Shown here in pieces: positions 376 through 7,137 of a stretch of DNA of 64,000 nucleotides. Position 1 is the stretch's first letter. Each line of letters starts with the position of its first letter. The notes below the pieces were generated by a model that saw only the letters and a list, made by a program, of their open reading frames with translations, was not told the DNA's origin and did not search any database. The position numbers were made by a program, and so were the translations under genes. This DNA comes from Streptomyces pactum (GTDB lineage Bacteria; Actinomycetota; Actinomycetes; Streptomycetales; Streptomycetaceae): assembly GCF_002005225.1 (NCBI RefSeq), contig NZ_CP019724.1, forward strand, positions 2,978,501-3,042,500, given 5' to 3'.

Positions 376-447
376 GCCCCCGTAGCTCAGGGGATAGAGC
401 AACGGCCTCCGGAGCCGTGTGCGCAGGTTCGAATCCTGCCGGGGGCA
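376..447 (+). tRNA. tRNA-Arg (anticodon CCG)
   Basis: The 72-base sequence folds as a complete cloverleaf: acceptor GCCCCCG/CGGGGGC, D stem GCTC/GAGC, anticodon stem ACGGC/GCCGT around the loop CTCCGGA (anticodon CCG, decoding CGG), a 4-base variable loop, T stem GCAGG/CCTGC with loop TTCGAAT, and discriminator A. The 3' CCA is not completely encoded (the next bases are CCT). The gene is intact although an accessory island begins immediately downstream, and its 3' half recurs in degraded form near 3957-4001. tRNA 3' ends are common integration sites for actinomycete integrative elements. Confidence 0.96.
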
Positions 448-521
448 CCTTGCATGAGGTGCCCAAAGACCCCGCCATCAGCGCTTTCGCTGAAGACGGG
501 GTCTTCGCGTATGTGCAGGCG
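403..521 (+). repeat. Left direct repeat: tRNA 3' half plus terminator (attL-like)
   Basis: This stretch runs from the anticodon stem of tRNA-Arg through its downstream hairpin. It reappears in the same orientation at about 3957-4075. The tRNA part is nearly identical and the terminator and following bases are roughly 75-80% similar by eye. The two copies bracket the restriction-modification genes, as attL and attR would. Confidence 0.75.
466..505 (+). terminator. Rho-independent-type hairpin after tRNA-Arg
   Basis: A perfect 9-bp stem AAGACCCCG (466-474) / CGGGGTCTT (497-505) lies 18 bases after the tRNA. There is no long T-run, which is usual in streptomycetes. The same hairpin is conserved in the right repeat. 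Confidence 0.75.
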
Positions 522-832
522 TATGCCGCTCGGAGCGGGCGTATGCCGGAGGCTGTGGACAGGGGCCCGTCCGCGCTGCGACCAGGTCTTGGCATGCGGC
601 GGCAGAGCCCGCGGACCGCCGTCGTCCCACATCTGCCGCCGCCGTTCGGCGGTCAACCCGCCCCCTTGTGGATACCGCAGGCCTTCGGTGATGCCGCACG
701 GGCGACGAGTCGTCAGCCCCTACGACTCCACGAGTTCAACCCCAGCAGTCGGCAGCAAAGTTCGCGACCGGTCCGAATGACTTCAACGCCCCCCCCACCT
801 GCAGTTCGCATCGATGGGGCATACGAAGTGAA
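506..832. other. Non-coding left flank of the island
   Basis: No convincing complete gene lies between the tRNA terminator and the endonuclease stop. The open frames here are short and out of keeping with codon bias. A possible transposase scrap is described separately. The rest shows no recognisable structure. Confidence 0.5.
600..716 (-). pseudogene. Possible decayed IS630-type transposase N-terminus
   Basis: Read on the minus strand, the peptide RYPQGGGLTAERRRQ followed by WDDGGPRAL resembles two separated parts of the N-terminal helix-turn-helix of IS630-family transposases common in Streptomyces (start ..RYPQGGGLT.., later ..W..A..GGP.AL..), as if the middle were deleted. No catalytic DDE region follows and no terminal inverted repeats are evident. 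This is recalled from family pattern only and could be coincidence. Confidence 0.25.
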
Positions 833-1489
833 TCACTCGACGAATTCTTGGGCTTCCTCAAGCCCATCTTGAATATAATTCGGAAGCATGCCCTGAGCGG
901 GACCATTTGGGGGCCAAACCTGCACACCGTGACGAGCAACGAAATTCAGGGGAATTTTAGGGTTGTTGAGGTGCGGGCGCGCACCTCCGCCCCGACGAGC
1001 ATCAATCTCAATCTGCCGCCGGAGCGCCGCTTCCCACTGAGAGAAGTACGGCTCCAAATTGTGCGGATGAATCTCGTAAATTGCTTCCGGACTCGACTGG
1101 TCGAAAACCGCAACGATCCAGAGATGAACCGACCTGTATCGATCAATATTATCGAGAGTGAGCGTGTGTTCCGTAGTGACACTTAGACTCTTCTTGCGCT
1201 CACCTTTGAAATTCATTCTTGCGACAGTTTTAATTTCATACTCTCGCCCTAGCGCATCCGTTGCATCGTTACCAACTCGCCCTCCCCCCTTGGTGAGGTT
1301 GAACAATTCAAGCAGCAAAAGCTCCTTGTACCCTCCATCGTCAAACACGTTATGAATATGCCGCTCAGAGGCGCTCCTCTGAAGCTGCAACCCTAGTTCT
1401 ACGATCTTGCGGATATCACCTTGCGGACGGAGGAGAGCCCCCTGGTCTTGCGGGTCTCGCTGCCTCGGGACGGGCTGATGATCAGTCAC
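833..1489 (-). CDS. Putative type II restriction endonuclease (PD-(D/E)XK fold)
   Basis: This 218-residue protein carries a nuclease-like signature: an acidic helix (YKELLLLELFNL, residues 54-65), then GND75, then E85-I-K87 in the context GREYEIKTV. That matches the PD-(D/E)XK arrangement of type II restriction enzymes, with D75, E85 and K87 as the predicted metal-binding and catalytic residues. The gene is visibly poorer in G+C than its surroundings and uses A/T-ending codons, so it was probably acquired by transfer. It lies downstream of the methyltransferase on the same strand but has its own promoter-like 20-base sequence (1520-1539), shared with the controller gene. Recognition sequence and exact family cannot be read from the sequence. 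The nuclease call also rests on the adjacent methyltransferase and controller genes. Confidence 0.72.
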   Translation of the reverse strand: MTDHQPVPRQRDPQDQGALLRPQGDIRKIVELGLQLQRSASERHIHNVFDDGGYKELLLLELFNLTKGGGRVGNDATDALGREYEIKTVARMNFKGERKKSLSVTTEHTLTLDNIDRYRSVHLWIVAVFDQSSPEAIYEIHPHNLEPYFSQWEAALRRQIEIDARRGGGARPHLNNPKIPLNFVARHGVQVWPPNGPAQGMLPNYIQDGLEEAQEFVE

Positions 1490-1519
1490 ATAAGAACGGT
1501 CGCCTGCCCCTGGATCAAC

Positions 1520-1540
1520 GTCTACAGACTATAAGTAACA
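1520..1540 (-). promoter_or_regulatory. Controller-protein operator/promoter of the endonuclease gene
   Basis: On the minus strand this reads GTTACTTATAGTCTGTAGAC, ending 31 bases before the endonuclease ATG. It contains a -10-like TATAGT overlapping the palindrome GTCT-GT-AGAC. The same 20 bases, with one mismatch, occur at 3449-3468 in front of the controller gene. Paired sites of this kind are the hallmark of C-protein regulated restriction-modification systems. The binding protein is inferred. Confidence 0.7.
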
Positions 1541-1735
1541 CCACGGATGCGGAGCGTAAGAGTCCGGCGTTCGAGTGCGTAGGGCTGCGGCTTTGAAAGT
1601 CGTGTGCGGGCTTCCCCTGACCCAGGCACTGGCCTGGCGTCTGAGTGAGTGCCGGAAACCAGCGCGGCCACTGGCTTCGAGTAGGGGCGGCACCCGTTGG
1701 CGAGAGGGCAACCGCCCTCCGGCTACCCGAAGCGC
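1541..1735. other. Gap between methyltransferase and endonuclease genes
   Basis: No gene is visible. It contains short hairpin-forming sequence near 1700-1725 (AGGGC..GCCCT) that could end methyltransferase transcription. Confidence 0.35.
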
Positions 1736-3457
1736 CTACTCGGGCTCGACCATGAGGCCTGTCTTCGGGTCGATGCTCCACCCGTCGTCGAGCAGCGTTG
1801 CCGTCGCCGTCTGCAGGCTGAGGTCCGCGACGCCCCATCCTTCACGAAGCGCGCGACGAAGCAGCTCCAGATACAGGTGACTCGGAGAGGCAGGGCCGGC
1901 AGCGCCGGCCAACTCGCGCGTCGCCGCAGCAACAGCCTCGGCCGTCGGCTGCTTGAACGAAGCCTCGGCGTCGTCCTGCGGAACCATCGTCAGGACAAGA
2001 TCGAGCGTAGCTACGTGTTCGAAGCCCGAGGCCAGGCCTTTAACGGAGCGCTGCCCCTTGTTCAGGATAGCGATTTTCTCCGGCTCGATACGCAGGCCGG
2101 CTGCTGCGACTGCTCGCTGGACCACTGCCCAGATCTTGCCCGAGGAGTTACCGAAGACCATTGAAATGCGTCCGCCAGGCTTAAGGATGCGGCGGCACTG
2201 CTTCAGCGACTCCGTCAGCAGCGCTTCATAGCGGCCCGCCGTGCGTTTCGTGCCAGTAGAGCGATCGATGACCGCTTCCTTGCCGACGTCGGTGAAACCA
2301 TCCAGCCAGCCCTCCTGGAACAACGCCATATCCGCGTAGAAGAGGTTCGAACCAAACGGCGGGTCCGTGAACACGTAGTCCACGCTTGCGTCCGGCAGGG
2401 ACAGCTCCGCAGCACTCTCCGTGACGTACTCCGCAGGCACCGAGTCCGCGTCCACGTTGTGCGTGAACGCCTGTCCCCGGATCCATTCATCAGCCTTCAG
2501 CACGGCGGTCGTCTTGCGTTCGAATAGTTCGAAGACGTTCCACTCGTAGAAAACCGGCGCGATGTAGTAATTCTGGTTCGCGGCGTTCAGTGGACGTTTG
2601 TGCGACCACTGATACCGCTTGCTCGCCCGAGTCAATGTTGCGGTGAACGCGAACAGCAGCTTCTGGCTCAGGGCCCGGTCCTCGATACTGCGGATCTCAT
2701 CGCGCAGGGCCACCAGAGTGCGCAAGTTACGCGGCGAATAGAACGAAGCTACGGTTGTGTAGCCGCTCTTGCCCAGCGCAGAGGCCCGATACATCTCCCG
2801 ATCGGGCGTAATCTCAACGTGGGGGAAGTCCAGGCCGTCGACGTCGATGCGCGGCGCGGCGACCGCCGGCTGCTCAAGCTGCTTCGGGGAGCACGCGCAG
2901 TTAACGTAGTCGACCACGGGCTGCTCACCCACGCGCTCGAGCGAACTCGAAATGTGGGCCGAGCAATGGGGGCAAATCATCTTCGGCTTCGACCACTCTG
3001 CGGCCTCGAGTGAGTGGTAGTAGTTCACGGGCTCCTCACAGCCCGCGCACCTCACCAGAACGCTCCAAACGGTTTTCGCAAGTTGGCCATTCCCACCGCA
3101 CCCACTGCAGGGAACCTCGTAGATCTTGCCCACAGCGTCCTTGGCCCGCTTGATAACGGCCTGCGCGGCACCCGTGAACTCGTACCCTTCCACCATGTTC
3201 AGGTAGTTGGACCCGATGTGTCGACCCAGCACAGAGATGTCCGACAGGCGCGCCTGACGCCCGGTGATCCGCGCCGCGATCCCGGTCATGCCGGATCCGG
3301 CGAACGGGTCGACCACGACGCCGCCGGGCGGACAGTATGCCTCGATGAACGGCGTAATCGCAGGCACGGGGACCTTCGTCAGGTAGGCGTGGGCGAGGTA
3401 GGCAGGGTCACCACGACCCACCACGATCTCCTCAGCCATGCCACCACTGTTACTCAT
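1736..3457 (-). CDS. DNA methyltransferase with zinc-ribbon-like insert (R-M system)
   Basis: Residue numbers here count from the longest frame (ATG 3481, 581 aa). The SAM-binding motif is DPFAGSGMTG (58-67) and the catalytic motif is TDPPFG (372-377), typical of amino-methyltransferases making N6-adenine or N4-cytosine. The motif order is I then IV, and about 300 residues separate them. That interval holds C-x2-C pairs at C125/C128, C145/C148 and C170/C173 plus C195/C197, suggesting one or two zinc ribbons. The C-terminal part (GLASGFEHVATLDLVLTM) completes the Rossmann core. Start candidates are ATG 3481, 3472, 3457 and 3439. None has a strong ribosome-binding site; 3457 is given as a compromise. 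The gene is divergent from the controller gene, and the controller operator lies inside or at this 5' end, so its expression is probably coupled to controller level. It is expected to protect host DNA from the adjacent endonuclease. Confidence 0.85.
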   Translation of the reverse strand: MSNSGGMAEEIVVGRGDPAYLAHAYLTKVPVPAITPFIEAYCPPGGVVVDPFAGSGMTGIAARITGRQARLSDISVLGRHIGSNYLNMVEGYEFTGAAQAVIKRAKDAVGKIYEVPCSGCGGNGQLAKTVWSVLVRCAGCEEPVNYYHSLEAAEWSKPKMICPHCSAHISSSLERVGEQPVVDYVNCACSPKQLEQPAVAAPRIDVDGLDFPHVEITPDREMYRASALGKSGYTTVASFYSPRNLRTLVALRDEIRSIEDRALSQKLLFAFTATLTRASKRYQWSHKRPLNAANQNYYIAPVFYEWNVFELFERKTTAVLKADEWIRGQAFTHNVDADSVPAEYVTESAAELSLPDASVDYVFTDPPFGSNLFYADMALFQEGWLDGFTDVGKEAVIDRSTGTKRTAGRYEALLTESLKQCRRILKPGGRISMVFGNSSGKIWAVVQRAVAAAGLRIEPEKIAILNKGQRSVKGLASGFEHVATLDLVLTMVPQDDAEASFKQPTAEAVAAATRELAGAAGPASPSHLYLELLRRALREGWGVADLSLQTATATLLDDGWSIDPKTGLMVEPE

Positions 3458-3468
3458 AGTCTGTAGAC
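3448..3468 (+). promoter_or_regulatory. Controller-protein operator/promoter of the C gene
   Basis: The sequence GTTACTCATAGTCTGTAGAC (3449-3468) holds the GTCT-GT-AGAC palindrome (3459-3468), 33 bases before the controller ATG. It matches the endonuclease upstream site (1520-1540, opposite strand) with one mismatch over 21 bases, at a nearly equal distance from the start codon. It also overlaps the methyltransferase start region. Confidence 0.72.
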
Positions 3469-3501
3469 CCATCGTCTGCACCGTCTTAGCGTCCCCACAT
3501 C

Positions 3502-3741
3502 ATGACGCACGCCTCCGACAAGCTCCGCATCCAGCGGCAGCGTGAGGCGTTCGGCCGCCGCGTGCGGGAGTACCGTCTCTCAGCAGGCCTCTCACAAGAA
3601 GAGCTCGCGGAAGCTGCGGGGATCCACCGCACCTACGTCTCTTCGTTGGAACGAGGTCAGCGCAACGTAAGTCTTGACAACATCATTGCCCTCGCACGTG
3701 CACTCAAGATCGATGCCGCACAATTGCTCGAAGGTATCTGA
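3502..3741 (+). CDS. XRE-family controller (C) protein of the R-M system
   Basis: This 79-residue protein is almost entirely one helix-turn-helix domain: FGRRVREYRLSAGLSQEELAEAAGIHRTYVSSLERGQRN, with the turn near AAGIHRTYVSSLE, ending LKIDAAQLLEGI. The size and sequence style match C proteins of type II restriction systems, which bind as dimers to short operators, activate their own and endonuclease transcription at low dose and repress at high dose, delaying nuclease appearance. No Shine-Dalgarno sequence precedes the ATG, consistent with the leaderless or short-leader mRNAs common for C genes. It is divergent from the methyltransferase. The position of a shared operator before this gene and before the endonuclease supports the role. 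Confidence 0.85.
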   Translation: MTHASDKLRIQRQREAFGRRVREYRLSAGLSQEELAEAAGIHRTYVSSLERGQRNVSLDNIIALARALKIDAAQLLEGI

Positions 3742-3956
3742 TGGGTTCAAGAAGGACGTTCATCTCGCTCGTCTCCTGAGCATGGGAGTCAACGCCGCCG
3801 ACGCGGTCGCCCAAGGCCTCGAGCATCATCAGGGGCACCGCTTCATCAAGCTTGAGCACTCACAGGCGCCGATGAGCCGTGGACCATCTGTGGACTGGCT
3901 GCCCGCGAACGGCCGCGTGTGTATCTCAGCCCTGCTGCTTCGCCCGAGGATCAAGC
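3742..3956. other. Non-coding right flank of the island
   Basis: No gene is supported between the controller stop and the right repeat. A residual 5' tRNA-like stretch (GAGGATCAAGC near 3947-3957) aligns loosely with the tRNA D arm. No integrase, excisionase or recombinase frame was found here or on the left side. Confidence 0.5.
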
Positions 3957-4075
3957 GGCCTTCGAAGCCGTGTGCGCAGGTTTGAATCCTGCCGGGGGCA
4001 CTTCGCAGGAAGTGTCCAAAGACCCCGCCATCGGCGAGTTCGCTGCGGACGGGGTCTTCGCGTATGTGCGGGCGG
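3957..4075 (+). repeat. Right direct repeat: degenerate tRNA-Arg 3' half plus terminator (attR-like)
   Basis: Bases 3957-4001 repeat the tRNA-Arg anticodon arm to acceptor 3' end with a few changes. The anticodon loop reads CTTCGAA instead of CTCCGGA and the T loop TTTGAAT instead of TTCGAAT, losing an invariant C. The 5' half is not conserved, so this is not a functional tRNA. The copy of the downstream hairpin follows (4019-4058). It marks the chromosomal side of the island junction. Confidence 0.75.
4019..4058 (+). terminator. Hairpin in right repeat
   Basis: AAGACCCCG (4019-4027) pairs with CGGGGTCTT (4050-4058). It is the counterpart of the tRNA terminator at 466-505 and is probably the original downstream terminator of the tRNA before the island entered. 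Confidence 0.65.
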
Positions 4076-4210
4076 GTGCCGCCCCGAGCAGGCGTTTGCC
4101 GGTGATCACCGATGACGACGTCATGGTCTGGACGGGCTTCGCCGGCGGCGGGTCGAAGCGGGTTTCGCAAGGCTCTGGGCGACGCCGTGCGGGCCAGTCG
4201 TGGTCGTGGC

Positions 4211-5265: not shown

Positions 5266-7137
5266 TCACGCCAGTGCCAGTACCGTCCTCACGACCTGGC
5301 GCAGCATCTGCTCCGGGTCCGGGGCCGGGCCCGGGGAGCGCCACGCGACGAAGCCGTCGGGGCGGACGAGGACCGCACCGCCGCGGGTCACTCCGTGGGC
5401 CTTCGCCCAGTCGGCTTCCTCGTCGTCCTGGATGAGGTCGGCCGCCGGTGTTCCGCCCACGCGGTACGACTTCAGCGGGACCCGCAGATCGGCCGCCAGG
5501 CGCGTCGCCGCCTCGTGCCAGCCGGTGGGCTGTGCCGCGTCGCTGAGCAGGACCAGGGAGTCCTCGTAGAGGTCCAGGGTGGAGATGCGGGCCCGGTCGT
5601 CGCCGCGGCGGAGCCAGACGTGGGGGGCCCGGCTGCCCGGTGCGCCGGTGAGGTCGAGGCTCTCCGGGACCACCGGGGTCGCCGGGTCGGCGCCGACCAC
5701 CGCGCCCTGGGGGTAGCGGTAGCCGAGGGCGACGTTGAGGATGCCGCGCTGCGGGCCTCCGCCGGGACCGCCGGGACCGCCGGGACCACCAGGACCGCCC
5801 GCAGGGGGACCGCCGGGACCACCAGGACCGCCCGCAGGAGGACCGCCGGGACCGCCGGGACCGCCCGCAGGGGGACCGCCGGGACCGCCCCCGGGACCGC
5901 CCGCAGGGGGACCGCCGGGACCGCCCTCGGGGCCGCCGGCCGGTGCCCCGCCCCCCATACCGGGCGGTGGTGCGAACCCCGGGTGGCTGTGTTCGACCGA
6001 GCGTCCGGCGGCTCGGGCGCTGGTGGCCTCCGCGACCGGGCGGCGTTCCGCGTCGTAGGTGTCCAGGAGGCCCTCGCCCGCCCAGCCCTCCAGGACCGCG
6101 GCGAGTTTCCAGGCCAGGTTGTGGGCGTCCTGGATGCCGGTGTTGGAACCGAAGGCGCCGGTCGGGGACATCTCGTGGGCCGAGTCGCCGGCCAGGAGGA
6201 CGCGACCGGAGCGGTAGCTGCGGGCGACGCGCTGGGCGGCGTGCCAGGGTGCCTTGCCGGTGATCTCCACGTCGAGGTCCGGGACGCCGATCGCGCGGCT
6301 GATGTGGGCGGCGCAGCGCTCGTCGGTGAAGTCCTCGACCGTTTCACCCTGTTCGGGGTGCCAGGGGGCGTGAAAGACCCAGTTCTCGCGGTTGTCGACC
6401 GGCAGGAGGGCGCCGTCGGCGTCCTCGTTGGTCAGATAGCAGACGATGAAGCGGCGGTCGCCCACGACGTCGGCGAGGCGGCGGGAGCGGAAGGTGATGC
6501 TGACGTTGTGGAAGAGGTCGCCGGGGCCGCTCTGCTCAATGCCCAACTGCTCGCGGACGGGGCTGCGGGGACCGTCGGCGGCGACGAGGTAGTCCGCGCG
6601 GATGGTGGAGTGCTCACCGGTCTCCCGGCTCTTGACGATGGCGGTGACACCCTCGGCGTCGGCCTCGAACGACAGCAGCTCCGTGCCGAAGCGCAGGTCG
6701 CCGCCGAGGTTCGTGGCGTGGGTGAGGAGTTCCGGCTCCAGGTCGTTCTGGGAGCACAGGCACCAGGAGCTGGGGCTGAAGCGGGCCAGTCCGCCCCCTG
6801 CGTCCATCTCCTTGAACAGCCACTCCCCCGCGTCGCCGACCAGGGTGGGTGTCTGGAAGATGCCGTGGTTGTCGGCCAGGACGGCGGCGGCCTTCCTGAT
6901 GTCCGGCTCGGTGCCGGCCACGCGGAAGATCTCCATCGTGCGGACGTTGTTGCCGCGCCCGCGGGGGTGGATGGAGGTGCCGGCGTGGCGCTCCACCAGG
7001 GTGTGCCGGATGCCCAGCCGCCCCAGGAACACCGAGGTCGACAGGCCCACCAGGGATCCGCCGACGATGAGCACCGGGACGCGGTGGACTCCGCCCCCGG
7101 GGGCGGCTCCGCCGGACCGATCGGCTCTTTGGTTCAT
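5266..7137 (-). CDS. whiE ORFVIII: WhiE ORFVIII-type FAD-dependent polyketide hydroxylase
   Basis: A 623-residue group A flavoprotein monooxygenase. The N-terminus holds the FAD Rossmann motif PVLIVGGSLVGLSTSVFL (about 21-38), the middle has the DG motif (LVAADGPRSPVREQLG), and GRVLLAGDSAHEMSP is the second FAD/ribityl motif. It would hydroxylate the aromatic polyketide made by the plus-strand whiE genes. Residues roughly 390-465 are an unusual Gly/Pro tract (PAGGPGGPGGPPAGG repeats) interrupting the region after the FAD fold. A thioredoxin-like C-terminal domain follows. The gene is divergent from ORFI, and in S. coelicolor the corresponding promoter is known to depend on the late sporulation sigma factor SigF. 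A weak RBS (AGGACGA) precedes ATG 7137. Confidence 0.93.
   Translation of the reverse strand: MNQRADRSGGAAPGGGVHRVPVLIVGGSLVGLSTSVFLGRLGIRHTLVERHAGTSIHPRGRGNNVRTMEIFRVAGTEPDIRKAAAVLADNHGIFQTPTLVGDAGEWLFKEMDAGGGLARFSPSSWCLCSQNDLEPELLTHATNLGGDLRFGTELLSFEADAEGVTAIVKSRETGEHSTIRADYLVAADGPRSPVREQLGIEQSGPGDLFHNVSITFRSRRLADVVGDRRFIVCYLTNEDADGALLPVDNRENWVFHAPWHPEQGETVEDFTDERCAAHISRAIGVPDLDVEITGKAPWHAAQRVARSYRSGRVLLAGDSAHEMSPTGAFGSNTGIQDAHNLAWKLAAVLEGWAGEGLLDTYDAERRPVAEATSARAAGRSVEHSHPGFAPPPGMGGGAPAGGPEGGPGGPPAGGPGGGPGGPPAGGPGGPGGPPAGGPGGPGGPPAGGPGGPGGPGGPGGGPQRGILNVALGYRYPQGAVVGADPATPVVPESLDLTGAPGSRAPHVWLRRGDDRARISTLDLYEDSLVLLSDAAQPTGWHEAATRLAADLRVPLKSYRVGGTPAADLIQDDEEADWAKAHGVTRGGAVLVRPDGFVAWRSPGPAPDPEQMLRQVVRTVLALA
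5750..5940. repeat. Gly/Pro-encoding low-complexity repeat in the hydroxylase gene
   Basis: Near-tandem copies of a CCGGGACCGCC-type unit with periodic CCCGCAGGGGG blocks encode the Gly-Pro-rich segment. All units are multiples of three, so the frame stays open. Confidence 0.85.

Follow-up and report, generated by a model that had tools for sequence, protein, structure and literature searches.

A PvuII-related restriction-modification locus of Streptomyces pactum with a separately placed endonuclease gene behind a predicted activation-only C-box

Background

In the textbook view, the controller (C) proteins of restriction-modification (R-M) systems are activation-repression switches, and on the same view the endonuclease stays harmless only if a repressing operator is there. 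The standard layout places the endonuclease gene (R) downstream of the controller gene (C) without a promoter of its own (PMC3850674), and both genes share a promoter that is activated from a distal operator and repressed from a proximal one (PMC6237814, PMC3850674). C-dependent transcription in PvuII starts directly at the initiator codon of C, which gives a leaderless transcript (PMC2997769), and such transcripts are common among C systems of the PvuII and EcoRV families (PMC4824078). Here, we describe a C-protein R-M locus of Streptomyces pactum within a 64,000-nucleotide stretch of contig NZ_CP019724.1 (positions 2,978,501 to 3,042,500; hereafter, the window, to which all coordinates refer), where a controller binding site (C-box) precedes the controller gene and, separately, an endonuclease gene placed apart from it.

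We put at about 0.7 the probability that this locus is a PvuII-related type II system whose R gene stands outside the controller operon, under a form of the C-box that would activate without repressing. Labels beginning with L and G denote the loci and genomes of our searches.

Results

Paired boxes of the locus

The locus comprises R (833..1489, minus strand; 218 amino acids (aa), GTG start at 1489), a methyltransferase gene, M (1736..3457, minus strand; 573 aa), and C (3502..3741, plus strand; 79 aa, ATG at 3502). The coordinates and directions given for these genes by an earlier sequence-only reading of the DNA hold, except for the start of M, and that reading had also recognised a C-protein R-M locus with a box ahead of both C and R, which our analysis bears out. 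R lies on the strand opposite to C, beyond M and with its own box, and thus departs from the standard layout of R after C.

The 20-base element GTTACTYATAGTCTGTAGAC occurs at 3449-3468 (plus strand) and 1520-1539 (minus strand), and the copies differ at Y alone, which confirms the single mismatch noted before. The distances of 31-33 bases to the two genes that had been given are close to ours, namely 33 bases for C (ATG 3502) and 30 for R (GTG 1489). The window held no third copy at up to three mismatches (the mean of 100 shuffles was 0), and the 17-nucleotide core, with up to two mismatches, was found at these two places only in the 8,550,793-base genome. A chance match was considered for the second box and rejected, as none of 1000 shuffles per locus was as good, and the reversed box pattern gave no match among the matches listed in the genus and class searches.

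The controller C-box (3452..3477, plus strand) has a left operator at 3452-3460 and a right operator (OR) at 3467-3477, with the -35-like TAGACC at 3464-3469. Its columns 1-15 (numbered from the first A of the box) are identical to those of the site upstream of C on the PvuII plasmid pPvu1, ACTCATAGTCTGTAGATTCAAAGTC, and these columns are invariant in 14/14 C sites (the window, its relatives and pPvu1); most statistics below use an alignment of 13 C sites, to which the fourteenth was added later. The sequence-only reading had taken the operator to be unlike the known type, with GTCT-N2-AGAC as its core. However, the left half reads ACT-N3-AGT, and GTCT-N2-AGAC marks the place where the left operator of a classical C-box meets the right one, so the controller site reads as a PvuII-type C-box and not as a new type of operator. 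The earlier choice of core is contradicted by the same alignment.

The C-box of R (1520..1536, minus strand) consists of the left operator ACTTATAGT plus CTGTAGAC, with one mismatch to the 17-nucleotide consensus (0/1000 shuffles were as good). The right half of OR is missing from it, with TTGATCC in place of the CATCGTC of the controller site. Hence, the two elements are not equivalent copies of one operator, as had been supposed, since the controller site has both operators and the R site only the left operator and spacer. This difference recurs among relatives. A C-box precedes R in all seven loci, the window included, in which R lies apart from a C gene that is present, with 0-2 mismatches in 17 positions and none of 1000 shuffles as good in each case. 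The GTC of OR (columns 23-25) is found in 14/14 C sites but in 0/7 R sites (Fisher p 1.3e-5 against the 13 C sites of the main alignment, relatedness ignored), while the R sites retain columns 1-17 with few changes and carry right halves that differ between lineages (TTGATC or TTGGTC, CTCAGG, ATTAGG and GTCGGA). No second box was present in either of the two C-R operons (L009 and L010; best match, 8 mismatches), and no C-box stood at R in the two loci where no C was found (L007 and L015; best match, 7 mismatches).

Promoter arrangement and gene starts

The hexamer pattern NANNNT starts at column 36 or 37 in 13/13 C promoters and 7/7 R promoters, whereas at the other offsets tried (20-34 and 38-55) it reaches at most 7/13 and 4/7, respectively. 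The predicted -10 hexamers of the window are TAGCGT for C (3487..3492, plus strand) and GACCGT for R (1496..1501, minus strand), the box-to-hexamer distance of R being that of the C promoter. A -35-like TAGACN (in some sites TAGCCN or TGGACN) occupies columns 13-18, 17 bases ahead of NANNNT. The TATAGT or CATAGT earlier proposed as -10 elements belong to the operator, and NANNNT, which starts 36 or 37 bases from the beginning of the site, is the better fit. Start codons lie at column 51 (C) and column 48 (R) in the window, and at about columns 48-54 in the other loci by hand counts. As in PvuII, leaderless transcripts are the simplest reading for C and R, and the R transcript is probably leaderless.

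The controller box also appears to hold the start of M. Indeed, the CAT of ACTCATAGT is the in-frame ATG of M in 14/14 C sites, with the protein beginning MSN or MSS, and this embedded start spans three M families (M.PvuII, the window M and, in L026, an M of the D12 class). At column 4, a C stands in 14/14 C sites and in 3/7 R sites (p 0.006, relatedness ignored), as expected if the start codon of M, rather than C binding, fixes this base. Because L028 has no start codon at the position matching ATG 3439, the upstream start is favoured, and ATG 3457 (3455-3457), inside the controller site, is most likely the start of M.

Identity of the three proteins

R matches PF09225 (Endonuc-PvuII) with an E-value of 9.1e-30 (104.1 bits, cut-off 25), which places it in this family, and the PvuII structure 3ksk of the PDB with 1.3e-38. 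It is 35% identical to R.PvuII, and the alignment conserves D-x9-E-x-K, which we take to be the catalytic residues. Of the STHHHM stretch of PvuII, one of the three histidines is retained, and given this loss, the target of R could have shifted. In L007 and L015, R (57% and 63% identity) stands beside a convergent methyltransferase, which in L007 is 55% identical to M.PvuII and in L015 resembles the M.PvuII type, as judged from its translation. These neighbours suggest CAGCTG as the predicted specificity of the R family, and also suggest that the methyltransferase partner changed between the L007/L015 branches and that of the window.

C is a small helix-turn-helix (HTH) protein adjoining R and M, with a paired-operator C-box upstream of its gene, as in other members of the C family. 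It is 42% identical to C.PvuII and matches C.BclI (1.3e-15) and C.AhdI (4e-15) in the PDB, and the PADLOC model Control_protein (1.1e-20). HRTY, presumably the recognition helix, is invariant in 5/5 C proteins. C also carries the SQE motif, which has been described as a sigma-70 contact (PMC4824078).

M has CxxC pairs (zinc-ribbon-like) and a DPPF motif, by which it would probably methylate adenine at N6. In the protein form starting at 3439, it matches N6_N4_Mtase (2.3e-17) and the PADLOC model MTase_II PDLC03312 (4.4e-95). The best PADLOC model of M.PvuII is PDLC03323, and the window M is thus not of the M.PvuII type.

Occurrence in other genomes

Two peptide patterns drawn from the R alignment were run against 84,980 species genomes and yielded eight loci. 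The system was found in 2/391 genomes of the order sample and 2/394 of the class sample, the window genome being included both times, and it is therefore rare in species samples. Within the genus, a pattern search found the box in 6/392 genomes, as a pair in G000, G337 and G844 and singly in G006, G772 and G177, the last three without a PF09225 match. Beside controllers, 14 C sites share the box, that of pPvu1 included. Note that L006 (Streptomyces niphimycinicus) equals L028 (the copy in G844, of the same genus as the window) in sequence, as L011 equals L018, and that each pair was counted once.

Three layouts were observed among the loci that have R, M and C. In the first, R and M lie on the same strand and C is divergent from M at the far end (the window, L005, L006 and L017); in the second, R is convergent with C, which is divergent from M (L008, L012 and L018); and in the third, M is divergent from a C-R operon (L009 and L010).

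The same C-box was also seen in other company. At L026:3772-5972 (G006, same genus), it accompanies a C protein with 67% identity over 60 aa, a methyltransferase of the D12 class that carries an Lsr2-like tail, as well as a DUF7687 protein matching a PADLOC type II endonuclease model. In three viral contigs (L038, L039 and L046), a PvuII-type methyltransferase lies beside a C-box, and no C or R relative was found by tblastn in the stretch.

In the genus labelled g46, three tandem C-like HTH genes occur, and in 10/10 loci (L050-L059) the C-box has a left operator without OR. By hand count, 10 of the 12 genomes of this genus in the class sample show the tandem genes, and the two wider stretches read (L062:5851-6730 and L063:6099-7001) have CAGCGT from column 36 on, followed by GTG at column 48. 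Nine protein queries gave no R, M or R2 (see below) relative by tblastn in these two 13-kb stretches, and these C-like proteins are possibly domesticated C proteins.

A second candidate nuclease

In G177, G772 and G716, C is followed by a protein of 487-489 aa with HEAT repeats (PF13646), here called R2. Searches of G177 and G772 gave no PvuII-type R (0/2), nor did that of G716, which belonged to the class sample. R2 has a conserved D-x10-E-x-K/R-x-K stretch with CxxC, in which D59, E70 and K74 are kept in 40/40 sequences, P58 in 37/40, and position 72 carries K in 23 sequences but R in the other 17. Its profile matches HEAT and alphaRep structures in the later part and a few marginal others, and PADLOC, NCBIfam and PHROGs named no nuclease.

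R2 is free of internal stops over the matched part in seven loci, directly after C in five (L006, L008, L027, L029 and L032) and after R in a C-R operon in two (L009 and L010, residues 1-466 matched). That R2 is a mere neighbour was considered, and its place after C or C-R in these seven loci speaks against this, although most R2 loci were obtained through R or the C-box and the count is hence biased; a search by R2 itself found it in 1/394 genomes, namely G716, the source of L032. Intact R2 lies beside R in L006, L008 (between R and C), L009 and L010, whereas tblastn did not find it in L012 and L018. Truncated or internally deleted remnants directly follow C in the window (3743..3859, plus strand; the start of the gene, 39 aa, 56% identity, E-value 2e-8), at L017:5111-5338 and at L005:3648-3743. 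Judging by this distribution, the streptomycete loci probably descend from an ancestor with both R and R2. A tree of 11 M proteins gave no resolved branching among the six Streptomycetaceae rows.

Genomic surroundings

The R-M cassette is enclosed by 147-nucleotide direct repeats of 86% identity (403..549 and 3956..4102, plus strand). The left repeat begins within tRNA-Arg(CCG) (376-449) and comprises the 3' part of this tRNA and downstream sequence. L005, L006 and L017 have the same tRNA within the stretch fetched, and it was not found in the 10 other loci scanned, including L028, which is a shorter stretch of the L006 locus. Taken together, the repeats and the tRNA fit a mobile cassette at a tRNA site. 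Further along the window, GGACCGCCG-type repeats at 5756-5940 lie inside an open reading frame (5266-7137, minus strand) and yield a Gly/Pro-rich insert; the protein has the look of a flavin adenine dinucleotide (FAD) monooxygenase, a family name guessed from the translation.

Discussion

From the sequences, their conservation, spacing and architecture, we infer a circuit comprising C binding, activation, non-repression at R, leaderless transcripts and a possible effect on M. A C dimer would bind the left operator at both promoters, beside the -35-like TAGACN, and the bound protein would activate transcripts starting at or near the start codons of C and R. A second dimer would then occupy OR of the controller promoter, between the -35 and the -10, and so limit C. 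Because the right half of OR is missing at R, C would switch R on without repressing it directly, and the level of R would be held down solely via the limitation of C. M starts inside the controller left operator, so that C binding there may affect M too. A toy model was run with 300 random parameter sets, of which 192 switched on and 108 were dropped. In those that switched on, the activity of the R promoter was 1.5-12 times (5-95%) that of the C promoter, and R lost copy-number buffering. This outcome is a consequence of the equations that were assumed, a prediction rather than evidence.

Several points weigh against this reading. NANNNT is a loose motif, and the start codons of R are those that we infer. 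Four of the seven R sites come from the window and three Streptomycetaceae whose R is 87-90% identical to that of the window, and the set therefore amounts to about three to four independent lineages. The 16-mer TACTCATAGTCTGTAG alone is not diagnostic, since 5 of 15 viral contigs with it show no C relative; in the fetched stretches, six of the 15 have a C relative, three a PvuII-type M alone, one weak M matches only and five nothing. Moreover, the GAC left half of OR is retained in 7/7 R sites, and a weak, diverged OR at R could still bind C.

This last point leads to the best of the alternatives, in which two dimers bind the R box through the diverged OR and R is activated and then repressed like C, which would make the locus an ordinary C circuit divided between two places. 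C proteins are known to tolerate degenerate right operators. In PvuII, loss of the repression site impaired establishment through endonuclease overexpression, according to a 2025 review (PMC12707154), and an R promoter without OR must therefore be tolerated for another reason, which may be that C itself stays limited. Nevertheless, the right half is unlike that of the C sites in all seven R sites and varies between lineages, and GAC belongs to the -35-like TAGACN too, which could explain its conservation. We thus consider repression through a diverged OR unlikely.

In another explanation, the R box would be a functionless leftover of a duplication or rearrangement, and a weak promoter would drive R constitutively; Kpn2I and Csp231I are precedents, with R promoters that are independent of C (PMC6237814, PMC4824078). 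Against this, the box is conserved over lineages of about 60% R identity, together with its distances to the -10-like hexamer and the start codon, and such a leftover appears quite improbable. Finally, a new operator class with a GTCT-N2-AGAC core overlapping the -10, as the sequence-only reading proposed, is hardly credible, for although the core is the same in both window sites, its second arm is AGCC in 4/13 C sites and AGAT in PvuII rather than AGAC, the controller box matches that of PvuII as described above, and NANNNT lies at columns 36-42.

Returning to a C-box at R that activates without repressing, R2 invites a more tentative extension, to which we give distinctly less than an even chance. 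In such an actinobacterial system, one controller would drive two interchangeable candidate nucleases, the PvuII-type R from a half C-box that is movable and only activates, and R2 as part of the controller operon, with one guarding methyltransferase, and lineages would lose one of the two, so that R alone, R2 alone or both are present. If true, the half C-box would allow a new endonuclease gene, whatever its position or direction, to be added to a circuit already in place. Natural R promoters with an activating but without a repressing operator would separate both roles of C proteins and make them testable, and the parts of a restriction system (methyltransferase, nuclease and operator) would be exchangeable while the control timing may be kept.

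Comparison with known systems

In the literature searched, with the 2009 C-protein survey and the 2000 and 2007 PvuII operator papers lying outside the search, no C-box-controlled endonuclease gene apart from C was found. As far as this search extends, a separate activation-type C-box at R is new, and an earlier mention is possible.

The PvuII system (Proteus vulgaris pPvu1, NC_002632) resembles the locus in columns 1-15 of the C-box, the -10 spacing, the families of C (42%) and R (35%, with the active site), and an M that is divergent from C and has its ATG inside the C-box. However, pPvu1 has a C-R operon and an M type of its own, whereas in the window R stands apart from C behind a box that lacks the right half of OR, and M is of another family, with CxxC pairs and DPPF. 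Esp1396I likewise has more than one C-box in one system, but its extra box stands at M (PMC4824078, PMC3758141) and here it stands at R. In regulation of the Esp1396I type, C represses M through the box at M; the start of the window M falls within the controller C-box itself. Kpn2I shares the separate transcription of R, C and M, with C and M divergent. However, its R promoter is C-independent and its C site lies inside the C gene (PMC6237814), whereas here, judging by site positions, the C gene has its site upstream and R has a C-box ahead of it, which does not correspond to Kpn2I-type regulation. Csp231I has R promoters separate from C and a leaderless C transcript, although these promoters need no C protein and part of the R transcription still comes together with that of C (PMC4824078), in contrast to the separate R gene described here, which would depend on C through its own box.

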